The position numbers and the translations under genes were made by a program. A stretch of 64,000 nt of DNA from Cyanobium sp. PLM2.Bin73 (GTDB lineage Bacteria; Cyanobacteriota; Cyanobacteriia; PCC-6307; Cyanobiaceae), in contig REEV01000120.1 in NCBI GenBank assembly GCA_007694915.1, positions 1-64,000 on the forward strand, in the 5' to 3' direction. The notes under the pieces were generated by a model. The model ran no database searches. It was not told the origin of the DNA and saw only the letters and a list, made by a program, of their open reading frames with translations. Positions 2,692 to 5,897 of the stretch are shown piece after piece (positions within the stretch are counted from its first letter, which is position 1; the number at the start of each line of letters is the position of its first letter).

Positions 2692-3387
2692 ATGGCCAGG
2701 CGGCACTGGCTGGACCCCCTGGCGCGTCGGCTGCTGTTGGCCAGCGGCCAGCTTCCGGCAACCAGAACCACACCCCCCACAGCCCCTGCCAGCCCCTGCC
2801 GGGATTCGGCTCAGGCGGACCAACAGTGTGAGGTCGAGCGGGAGCTGCTGGCCCTGAAACTGCGACAGGAGCCTGCCCGCCCCCTGCGCACGGCTGAAGA
2901 GGTGCGACACGCCGCTGCCCTGGGCTGGCGGCTGGATGTGAACCGGGCCAGCGCCGGCGACTGGACACGCCTGCCCGGAATCGACACCGGGCAGGTGGAT
3001 CTGCTGCTGCGCCTCCAGGCCGGTGGGGTGCAGCTGAGTGGTGCGGAGGACCTGCAACGGCTCCTGGATCTGCCCTCGGCTCAGCTGGAGTGCTGGCTGC
3101 CGGTACTGCTGTTCCACTGGTACGGCCAACCCGCCACCCCATCGCCGGCCGAGATCCGGATCGATCTCAACCGGGCCGGCCCCACCCAGCTCGAGCGCCT
3201 GGGCCTGTCCAGCGAGCGCCGCCAGCGGTTGCTGCGGGAACGGGCCCGCGGGCCATTCCGCGATCTGGCCGACCTGCAGCAGCGGCTCCATCTCCCCCCC
3301 GATCTGGTGGAGAACTGGATCGGCAAAGTGAGGTTCAGCGCCGGCCAGGCAGGACCGGAGCTGCCGCCCGCGCGGCGCAGCGCCTGA
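2692..3387 (+). CDS. ComEA-like protein with two helix-hairpin-helix segments
   Basis: A 231-residue protein with two segments of the helix-hairpin-helix type. One starts near residue 80 (LDVNRASAGDWTRLPGIDTGQVDLLLRL) and one near 158 (IDLNRAGPTQLERLGLSSERRQRLLR). Each opens with the D-x-N-x-A pattern seen in ComEA and other non-specific DNA-binding proteins. The first 40 residues are proline/alanine-rich and arginine-rich with only a weak hydrophobic stretch, so export is unclear. It lies 32 bases after the LuxR-type regulator and 15 bases before a GIY-YIG-like nuclease gene, so the three could be co-transcribed. A role in DNA binding is inferred from the motif only. Confidence 0.75.
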   Translation: MARRHWLDPLARRLLLASGQLPATRTTPPTAPASPCRDSAQADQQCEVERELLALKLRQEPARPLRTAEEVRHAAALGWRLDVNRASAGDWTRLPGIDTGQVDLLLRLQAGGVQLSGAEDLQRLLDLPSAQLECWLPVLLFHWYGQPATPSPAEIRIDLNRAGPTQLERLGLSSERRQRLLRERARGPFRDLADLQQRLHLPPDLVENWIGKVRFSAGQAGPELPPARRSA

Positions 3388-3402
3388 GGCCGGCCGGCAA
3401 CC

Positions 3403-4023
3403 ATGGGAGGAGCACGGCAGGGGGACCTGTTCAGCGCGGCGGCAGACCTGGCAGGAACGGAACTCGACCCCGAACTGCCCCTGCTCCGCCATCAGCTGCT
3501 GGCCTGGCAGCAGGCCCTGGCACGCCACCAGTCCCCGCTGTTCACGGGCAGCAACGCGGTGGTTCAGCAGGTGGGGCTGTTCGATGACCCGCAACCCGCT
3601 GCCGGCGGCGGCCACCCCCATCTCGCCCTCAATCCTCTGCAGCTGCGGGCCCAGCCCCTGAGTTTCTGGCGCTGGCCGGAACCGCCCCAGCGGGGCGCGG
3701 CGCTCTACTTCGTGCTCGACCATTCGCCGGTCGGCGCAGGTCAACAGACCCAGCCACTGCTCCTCTACGTGGGCGAAACCGGCCGGGCTGATCGGCGCTG
3801 GAAGGGCGAGCACGACTGCAAGCAGTATCTGGCGGCCTACTGCGAGGCCCTGGCGCGGCTGGAGCTGGCCGCCAGGCTGAGCATCCACTTCTGGCTCGAC
3901 GCCCCTGAATCAGCACGCCAGCGCCGGGCACTGGAGCGGTCGCTGATCCAGCGCTGGCTGCCTCCGTTCAACAAGGAAACGCGTGGGCGCTGGGCCACCC
4001 CCTTCACCGCTGATGGCGACTGA
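3403..4023 (+). CDS. GIY-YIG-like nuclease domain protein
   Basis: A 206-residue protein whose second half has the elements of a GIY-YIG nuclease: ALYFV (residues 100-104) as the first strand, LYVGET (121-126) as the second, arginines at 131-132, a glutamate at 178 (ALERSLIQRW) that would bind metal, and an asparagine at 190 (PPFNKE). All expected catalytic positions are present, so activity is plausible. The N-terminal half (about residues 20-60) is glutamine/leucine-rich and not recognised. It follows the HhH gene by 15 bases and precedes pepA by about 39. Substrate is unknown; repair, uptake-associated processing and RNA cleavage are all possible. Confidence 0.7.
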   Translation: MGGARQGDLFSAAADLAGTELDPELPLLRHQLLAWQQALARHQSPLFTGSNAVVQQVGLFDDPQPAAGGGHPHLALNPLQLRAQPLSFWRWPEPPQRGAALYFVLDHSPVGAGQQTQPLLLYVGETGRADRRWKGEHDCKQYLAAYCEALARLELAARLSIHFWLDAPESARQRRALERSLIQRWLPPFNKETRGRWATPFTADGD

Positions 4024-4062
4024 AGCCGCTGGCTACGATCGCGGCCACGACACGCCTCCCCC

Positions 4063-5580
4063 ATGCAGTTTCGCTGCCTCCCCGACGCGCTCTCTGCCGT
4101 CCTCGGCCAGTGGAGCGGGGACACATTGGCGGTGGGGCTGTTCGCCGGCAGCGAGGAACGGCCGGAGCACCCTCTGCGGGGCGAACTGCTGAAGGCCGTC
4201 GGCGCCGGCCTTCAGCAACGGCTGGAGCAGCGGCGCTTCAAGGGGAAACCCGGGGAATGCCTGAGTTTCGAGCAACTTGAAGGCACGCCGCGCACGCTGA
4301 TCGTGGTGGGGCTGGGAGAGCCGGCCGGATTCGATCTCGACGGCCTGCGCGCCGCGGCCGCCAGCGTTGCCCAGGCCGCTGCGGCCGCGGGCGCCGAGGA
4401 CCTGGCGGTGGCCCTGCCCTGCGAGGGCTTTGAGAACGACGACGCCGGCAGGGCCATTGCCGAGGCGGTGCGGCTGAGCCTCTACAACGACCAGCGCTTC
4501 AAGAGCGAACAGGAGCCCCGGCCCCTGCCGGCCATGGTGTCCCTGATCGGCCTGCCCGCCAGCTGCGCCCAGGCCCTGGAGGCAGTGAGCGGCACCTGCG
4601 CCGGCGTGGAGCTGGCACGCCAGCTGGTGGCGGCACCCCCCAATGTGGTCACCCCCCAGCACCTGGCCGACACGGCCGCCGCCCTGGCCCGGGACCACGG
4701 CCTGGAGTTGCAGATTCTGGAGCGGGACGCCTGTGAAGCCCTGGGCATGGGCGCCTATCTGGGGGTGGCTCAGGGCTCCGACCTGCCCCCCAAATTCATC
4801 CATCTCACCTACCACCCAGCTGGCGGCGCCCAGCGGCGTGTGGCACTGGTGGGCAAGGGCCTCACCTTTGATTCCGGCGGCTACAACCTCAAGACCGGCG
4901 GCTCCCAGATCGAGATGATGAAGTACGACATGGGCGGCAGCGCGGCCGTACTGGGGGCAGCCCGGGCCATCGGCGAGCTCAAGCCCGCCGGGGTGGAGGT
5001 GCATGTGATCGTGGCCGCCTGCGAAAACATGATCAGCGGCGGGGCCGTGCACCCTGGCGACATCCTCACCGCCTCCAACGGCAAGACCATCGAGATCAAC
5101 AACACCGATGCCGAAGGCCGTCTCACGCTGGCGGACGCCCTGGTCTACGCCTGCAAGCTCGAGCCCGATGCCGTGGTCGACCTGGCCACCCTCACCGGGG
5201 CCTGCGTGATCGCCCTGGGCTCCGAGATCGCGGGGTTGTGGTCGAGCAGCGACGGGCTCAGCCAGTCCCTTCAGGCCGCCGCAGCCGCCGGGGGTGAAGC
5301 CCTCTGGCCGATGCCCCTGCGCAGCTCCTACAAGGCTGGCCTCAAGAGCCCCGTGGCCGATCTCAAGAACACCGGCCCGCGTCCCGGCGGCGCCATCACG
5401 GCTGCGCTGTTCCTGCAGGACTTCGTGAGCAAGGAGCTGCCCTGGGCCCACCTGGACATCGCCGGCACGGTGTGGTGCGACAAGGGCCGGGGCCTGGATC
5501 CGGCCGGGGCCACAGGCTTCGGCGTGCGCACCCTGGTGAACTGGATCTGCAGTGGGGCCCCGGTGGCGCAGCAGACCTAG
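4063..5580 (+). CDS. pepA: Leucyl aminopeptidase (M17 family)
   Basis: Removes N-terminal residues from peptides using two metal ions. The 505-residue protein has the M17 signature NTDAEGRL at 347-354, the metal-binding block GKGLTFDSGG at 264-273, and KYDMGG at 287-292, so the catalytic lysines, aspartates and glutamate all appear present. The N-terminal 170 residues match the less conserved regulatory domain. Length is normal for the family (about 490-510). The ATG at 4063 is the first sensible start after the upstream gene ends. In Escherichia coli PepA also binds DNA; nothing in this sequence tests that here. Confidence 0.96.
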   Translation: MQFRCLPDALSAVLGQWSGDTLAVGLFAGSEERPEHPLRGELLKAVGAGLQQRLEQRRFKGKPGECLSFEQLEGTPRTLIVVGLGEPAGFDLDGLRAAAASVAQAAAAAGAEDLAVALPCEGFENDDAGRAIAEAVRLSLYNDQRFKSEQEPRPLPAMVSLIGLPASCAQALEAVSGTCAGVELARQLVAAPPNVVTPQHLADTAAALARDHGLELQILERDACEALGMGAYLGVAQGSDLPPKFIHLTYHPAGGAQRRVALVGKGLTFDSGGYNLKTGGSQIEMMKYDMGGSAAVLGAARAIGELKPAGVEVHVIVAACENMISGGAVHPGDILTASNGKTIEINNTDAEGRLTLADALVYACKLEPDAVVDLATLTGACVIALGSEIAGLWSSSDGLSQSLQAAAAAGGEALWPMPLRSSYKAGLKSPVADLKNTGPRPGGAITAALFLQDFVSKELPWAHLDIAGTVWCDKGRGLDPAGATGFGVRTLVNWICSGAPVAQQT

Positions 5581-5612
5581 GTTTGCCTGGCCTCCACGCT
5601 GCCCCGCCGCCC

Positions 5613-5897
5613 ATGGCCATCCAGAAGATCCGCTGGTACGTGAAAGCCCAGCTCGGGGTGCTGATGCTGCCGGCGGGGCTGTGCCTGTTCGGAGAGGCCG
5701 TGATCCGCAAGGGTCTCGAGGAGCTGGTCAAGCGAACCGAGGTGGCCTCGGCAGCGGGCGAAAGCCTGCCCTTGAAACTGCTTCAGGCCCCAGGTCCCTG
5801 GTTCTGGTACGGCACCCTCGGATTGATCCTGATCAACGCCGGCGTGGGGCTGATGGTGGAAAGCGGGTTGCTGCGAGGCTACCCGCGCCGTAGCTGA
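5613..5897 (+). CDS. Small two-helix membrane protein, conserved hypothetical
   Basis: A 94-residue protein beginning MAIQKIRWYVKAQLGVLML. Two hydrophobic segments, about residues 13-28 and 63-82, suggest two membrane helices joined by a polar loop containing KGLEELVKRTE. The C-terminus is basic (YPRRS). The frame is open further upstream, but that stretch overlaps the end of pepA, so the ATG at 5613 is chosen. It lies 33 bases downstream of pepA on the same strand and is probably co-transcribed. No function is recognised; I recall similar small proteins only from picocyanobacteria. Confidence 0.7.
   Translation: MAIQKIRWYVKAQLGVLMLPAGLCLFGEAVIRKGLEELVKRTEVASAAGESLPLKLLQAPGPWFWYGTLGLILINAGVGLMVESGLLRGYPRRS

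Follow-up and report, generated by a model that had tools for sequence, protein, structure and literature searches.

Within a 64,000-nucleotide stretch of Cyanobium sp. PLM2.Bin73 (contig REEV01000120.1, here called the window), the core of our finding is a GIY-YIG nuclease gene encoding 206 residues (3403..4023, plus strand), recognized by its invariant residues, the Pfam matches of its relatives and its predicted fold. We propose that its product is a small endonuclease tethered to the β sliding clamp (DnaN) and acting at or behind replication forks, and we give this reading a probability of roughly 0.65. With its putative clamp-holding tags, the nuclease probably makes its cuts close behind the replication machinery. 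The identity and deep conservation of these tags, the active site and fold of the catalytic domain, the distribution of the family and the presence of like motifs in DnaE and MutS1 were observed directly.

The variable N-terminal tail of the nuclease holds few positions, namely Q6, L9 and F10; W35 and Q43; and Q56, L59 and F60. The first and last of these sets lie in two putative clamp-binding motifs, QGDLF at residues 6-10 (3418..3432, plus strand) and QVGLF at residues 56-60 (3568..3582, plus strand), both identified by conservation and a shuffle control. Between them, the alignment and the structural model indicated a predicted helix at residues 29-48 (3487..3546, plus strand) with W35 and Q43 invariant. 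This main feature of the protein had been overlooked in the first-pass annotation of the DNA. The bacterial clamp-binding consensus is given as QL[S/D]LF, or more generally QxxLF, with positions 1, 4 and 5 the most critical (PMC12309361; PMC9690074), and the three positions held in each nuclease motif are exactly these. Among the homologues with the stretch, motif 1 kept Q in 46 of 46, L in 44 of 46 and F in 42 of 46; the corresponding values for motif 2 were 46/47, 44/47 and 43/46. The third motif position was rich in S and D, matching the consensus. A further match, QSPLF at residues 43-47, was common within the picocyanobacterial family and was not seen in most distant sequences. Model confidence was low at both motif blocks (predicted local distance difference test, pLDDT, 54 and 62), which fits flexible segments. 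The tail carries two motifs of the published QxxLF type.

The recurrence of the motifs was compared with shuffled tails in 28 non-redundant homologues (nuclease-domain identity <70%). These were obtained by dropping three sequences without the anchor and thinning the 113 whose tail stretch had at least 85 residues. Two or more strict motifs occurred in 20 of the 28, against a shuffled mean of 0.012 and a maximum of 1 in 1000 shuffles. With the relaxed pattern, two or more copies were found in 25/28 (shuffled mean 0.89), and at least one strict motif was present in 28/28 (shuffled mean 1.1). When redundancy was included, 127 of 148 sequences held at least two strict copies, this count covering the 148 of 153 members that have the anchor. 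By the relaxed pattern, motif 1 was present in 34/35 members of the picocyanobacterial family and 31/33 readable distant sequences, and motif 2 in 34/35 and 29/33, respectively; the distant count comprised 33 of 36 loci, two of which (L042 and L154) belong to the same genome, G056. QGxLF was the commonest form of motif 1 within the picocyanobacterial family, and the textbook QLSLF was the commonest first motif in distant cyanobacteria (5/31). Of the 47 homologues, 44 entered alignment A1, with L001 represented by the window and L002, L013 and L016 left out. The profiles used to collect the homologues cover the tail, so the search may slightly favour motif-bearing sequences.

Similar motifs were found in known replication and repair proteins of cyanobacteria. 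The DnaE of E. coli has its own clamp motif after the helix-hairpin-helix (HhH) domain, and a clamp-type motif followed the HhH domain of DnaE in 16 of 17 cyanobacterial genomes, being a strict QxxLF in 11, starting with QG in 12 and reading QGNLF in 7. MutS1 of distant cyanobacteria had a C-terminal clamp-type motif in 6/6 cases; only one was strict (QLGLF), and the other five read QMTIF, QLQIF, QLSLI and, twice, QLDIF. DnaN was present in all six genomes examined, with similar C-termini such as YLVMPVQIRS. Together, these controls suggest that cyanobacteria use the QxxLF code, including its QG form.

The catalytic residues of GIY-YIG enzymes are Tyr, Tyr, Arg, Glu and Asn. The catalytic domain of the window protein, delimited by conservation and fold, spans approximately residues 88-203 (3664..4011, plus strand), and its Tyr102, Tyr122, Gly124, Arg132, His137, Glu178 and Asn190 were invariant in the alignment of 47 homologues (47/47). 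Y102, Y122, R132, E178 and N190 had already been singled out in the first-pass annotation; Arg131, also named there, proved not to be invariant. The Gly of 'GIY' was replaced by Ala in 42 homologues and by Cys in 5. Judged from these residues, the active site looks intact. Searched alone against Pfam PF01541, the window nuclease gave a sub-threshold match (E = 0.15; 12.8 bits, cut-off 22.6), so its relatives were needed to settle the assignment: 30 of the 44 aligned family members matched at E ≤ 0.1, the best at 5.8e-6. A sequence search of PDB with the window nuclease returned no related match. The AlphaFold2 (AF2) model had a pLDDT of 84, and a second-look structural alignment placed T4 EndoII, the UvrC N-domain, I-TevI and Eco29kI at ranks 1-10 (Z 5.8-7.7), while the top ten rows of Foldseek itself were Eco29kI chains (E 0.17-0.79). 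Taken alone, this fold evidence is moderate (Z < 8; Foldseek E > 0.1). Residue conservation, the profile matches of relatives and the fold together support the GIY-YIG assignment, and with it the earlier reading of the domain.

The nuclease was found in 47 of 60 genomes in a first search. In an even draw across the class, its profile matched 182 of 242 genomes, including 35/35 nearly complete genomes of the picocyanobacterial family. About 174 of these matches were sound, so that approximately 7 in 10 genomes carry the gene; of the eight others, seven were weak (G060, G071, G123, G208, G256, G265 and G269, the last judged by E-value alone) and one was split (G158). In G158 the gene lies in two pieces approximately 2.2 kb apart (C1:2641319-2643783), perhaps separated by an insertion. 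A scan of genome contigs gave at least 562 confirmed relatives, and the best 80 were cyanobacterial by title except for one Rubrivirga. The latter contig (L086), from a metagenome-assembled genome (MAG), carries a picocyanobacterial-type copy, and its assignment is probably a binning error. The nearest named relative among the matches listed was that of a Cyanobium MAG (L051), with 95% identity in the nuclease.

In the proposed mechanism, a flexible N-terminal tail of approximately 75 residues would present two clamp motifs about 50 residues apart, flanking a short helix. The β clamp is a homodimer with two identical sites, as described in the available text of two papers (PMC12309361; PMC9690074). 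Given their spacing in a flexible tail, the motifs could allow one nuclease molecule to fill both pockets of the clamp ring, or it might use one pocket and keep the other motif in reserve. The catalytic domain would be held beside freshly copied DNA, where it may nick or trim replication-associated structures. We infer clamp binding and nuclease activity as well as the pathway and the substrate, which could be nicked, flapped or branched post-replicative DNA.

Several points weigh against a clamp-tethered nuclease. The bacterial clamp motif is placed at the C-terminus in the part of PMC9690074 available to us, and the nuclease motifs are N-terminal. Motif 2 of the window protein (QVGLF) has Gly at position 3, a residue reported to weaken clamp binding in E. 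coli (PMC12309361). The DnaE of the window genome itself (G000; L212) is the sole exception among the 17 DnaE proteins, its site reading PQMSLSICP, without the motif. The presence of the nuclease does not follow that of MutS1, and short motifs like QxxLF can serve other partners. Furthermore, 60 of the 242 genomes gave no nuclease match, in addition to the 8 with weak or split matches; since about a quarter of the genomes lack the gene, its function is not indispensable.

A bolder reading, which we consider unlikely, is that mismatch repair in picocyanobacteria is free of MutL, MutS1 and the nuclease meeting on the clamp and the nuclease replacing the MutL nick. MutL_C had no match in the picocyanobacterial family, either in one draw (0/37) or among the nearly complete genomes of the other (0/35), and it matched 204 of 207 genomes outside. 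MutS1 was nearly universal (238/242); it was retained, like the nuclease, in 35/35 nearly complete family genomes, and in 33 of the 37 of the other draw, where the misses were genomes 71-85% complete. The C-terminal clamp motif of MutS1 was found in 0 of 8 picocyanobacterial proteins. The MutS1 proteins of the family have a long N-terminal extension with a QxxLF motif in 24 of 25 readable sequences (N-termini at loci L183-L188, L196, L240-L242, L244, L246-L255 and L257-L259; the later reading covered 17 of 20 stretches), and in 23 it was QGxLF, the same form that predominates in motif 1 of the nuclease there. In seven MutS1 proteins from the genus of the window, a second motif, QLSL(V/I), precedes the N-terminal QxxLF.

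The literature leaves room for such a role. MutH is reported to be missing from every cyanobacterium surveyed (PMC5101192). An account of Prochlorococcus PCC9511 records a mutS gene but neither mutL nor mutH, and does not decide whether repair exists (PMC2921402). For cyanobacteria outside the picocyanobacterial group, an unknown MutH-like nicking enzyme has been postulated in the part of PMC4390886 available to us. Since all 35 nearly complete genomes of the family encode the putatively clamp-tethered nuclease, it suggests itself as a candidate source of the missing nick.

Parts of its distribution argue against this reading. The nuclease was found in 37 of 38 MutL-lacking and 145 of 204 MutL-bearing genomes (weak matches included; one clade makes up 35 of the 38). 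Because most MutL-bearing cyanobacteria have it, the nuclease is probably older than the loss of MutL. That loss amounts in effect to one clade and three single genomes, one of which (G161) also lacks the nuclease. The MutL proteins of distant cyanobacteria retained an EQHxxHE-type motif in 21 of 22 cases, the 22nd being a partial match, in comparison with what we take to be the endonuclease motif; they are apparently endonuclease-competent, and the idea of a cyanobacterial MutL without this motif was dropped. A link between the presence of the nuclease and that of MutS1 was likewise discarded, as three of the four MutS1-less genomes, all of many contigs, have the nuclease. The MutL-bearing genomes, G161 and the failure to track MutS1 together favour a general clamp-tethered role, with mismatch repair as the bold case. 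Its most specific form, in which MutS1 and a two-motif GIY-YIG nickase would assemble on the clamp in Prochlorococcus, marine Synechococcus and Cyanobium, with the clamp position marking the new strand, we judge a shade less probable again.

It is distinctly improbable, in our estimate, that the QxxLF motifs engage a partner other than the clamp, or fold back against the nuclease, the protein being a generic repair or restriction-like nuclease. Clamp binding is predicted here from sequence, and the nuclease family also occurs on plasmids (31 records, of which 18 from Nostoc, with Microcystis and others among the rest), both of which leave weight on this explanation. Ten listed plasmid records name the product 'GIY-YIG nuclease family protein', 'hypothetical protein' or nothing. 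Both motifs were kept in the three plasmid copies that were read (L237-L239), with motif 1 of L238 found only upstream of the annotated start. Opposed to this explanation are the agreement of the conserved residues with positions 1, 4 and 5 of the published clamp motif, the like motifs of DnaE and MutS1, and the AF2 model, which gives the motif stretches low confidence and no packed position. PADLOC gave no match and searches for phage or viral relatives found none, which also speaks against it; a defence-system role and a phage origin were both rejected.

The neighbouring genes were also considered as partners. The first 6 kb of the window hold a co-directional run on the plus strand, in which a LuxR-type regulator, an HhH protein, the GIY-YIG-like protein and pepA follow one another. 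The first gene of the run (1946-2659) encodes the regulator, with a weak receiver domain; 18 of 35 family loci had a homologue of it on the upstream side, most loci being covered with a 1.5 kb flank only. The open reading frame of the HhH protein (231 residues; 2692..3387, plus strand), called with Pfam support as a tandem, ComEA/PsbU-like HhH protein, is a candidate partner. The pepA gene (4063..5580, plus strand) encodes a leucyl aminopeptidase of 505 residues (Pfam Peptidase_M17, E = 2.1e-121). Gaps of 15 bases between the HhH and nuclease genes and 39 bases between the nuclease gene and pepA confirmed the earlier description of the locus. Its double HhH assignment also held, as residues 155-213 matched Pfam HHH_3 above the cut-off (E = 1.2e-7) and two HhH domains aligned in the predicted model, residues 78-142 with ComEA (Z 8.9) and residues 154-216 with a chain of the type II secretion pseudopilin complex (Z 7.3). 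In one locus (L013, Synechococcus sp. GFB01, as L085), the HhH and nuclease genes run together in a single reading frame through an undetermined base, a fusion that probably stems from the assembly, and motif 1 is unreadable.

The first-pass annotation had viewed these genes as a unit, in which the HhH protein would bring the nuclease to branched DNA and both, perhaps with PepA, would form a structure-specific processing complex. In favour of this, ComEA is a DNA-binding protein, and the second HhH domain also aligned with the HhH part of the polymerase PolC (Z 6.1). The order was conserved inside one family, the HhH gene lying upstream of the nuclease in 29/35 picocyanobacterial loci and pepA downstream in 35/35, but neither gene adjoined the nuclease in any of 12 loci outside (0/12). 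In one outside locus (L039), an HhH homologue lay approximately 0.8 kb upstream of the nuclease. The genes also occur apart: in a search of 33 genomes for the HhH protein, 21 matched; eight genomes had it without the nuclease (G043, G048, G049, G052-G055 and G059) and eight had the nuclease without it (G015, G022, G029, G038, G051 and the incomplete G026, G028 and G032). Among 36 loci from beyond the picocyanobacterial family, 24 of them with 1.5 kb flanks only, no family of neighbouring genes was shared by three loci or more. Among the matches of the HhH protein there were PsbU-like chains too, and we know of no DNA-binding role for PsbU or the type II secretion chains. Some distant HhH homologues (L223, L227, L235 and L236) had hydrophobic, membrane-like N-termini as judged by eye. 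Because linkage to the nuclease was confined to one family, PepA as a DNA-binding partner and, with no recurrent neighbour either, the HhH protein as an obligate one were rejected. The unit is weakly supported and a joint complex very improbable; the preferred reading of the HhH-nuclease pair is a gene order specific to the family.

Targeting of GIY-YIG enzymes is usually the task of a DNA-binding or partner domain. In the available literature on GIY-YIG enzymes and clamps, and on clamp motifs and cyanobacterial nucleases, we found no paper on a GIY-YIG enzyme tethered to the bacterial sliding clamp. A word search of the accessible text of a 2006 GIY-YIG survey gave no mention of clamps and a single one of Synechocystis, for another protein group. 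If clamp tethering is true, the cyanobacterial genomes sampled would, in approximately 7 cases out of 10, carry an additional replication-coupled nuclease, and there would be a concrete candidate to explain whether and how MutS functions in picocyanobacteria that lack MutL and MutH (PMC2921402).

Compared with known systems, the cyanobacterial nuclease shares its fold and the catalytic Tyr, Tyr, Arg, Glu and Asn with T4 endonuclease II, the UvrC N-domain, I-TevI and R.Eco29kI. It differs from them in having Ala or Cys for the Gly of GIY, a tail with two putative clamp motifs instead of a known targeting domain, and no sequence match in PDB. The GIY-YIG fold is also shared with plastid domains fused to GRXS16 and Nfu, and a plant glutaredoxin domain (2lwf, presumably GRXS16) aligned with Z 5.3; the family profile had no match in PDB, and thus no sequence relation to these plant domains was seen. 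MutL and NucS, whose nuclease folds are unrelated to GIY-YIG, resemble the cyanobacterial protein in that a nuclease is linked to the clamp, as predicted here, whereas the latter carries a pair of motifs and lacks an ATPase. PMC9690074 counts MutL and NucS among the partners of the clamp and locates the clamp motif of MutL in its endonuclease part. For the plastid GIY-YIG domains, two ancestral genes in cyanobacteria have been suggested in the accessible text of PMC3721309. Finally, plant MSH1, as described in the available text of PMC12292046, likewise joins GIY-YIG cutting to mismatch or recombination surveillance, but it does so as a single fusion of MutS and GIY-YIG, whereas the cyanobacterial nuclease is a separate protein without a MutS fusion.

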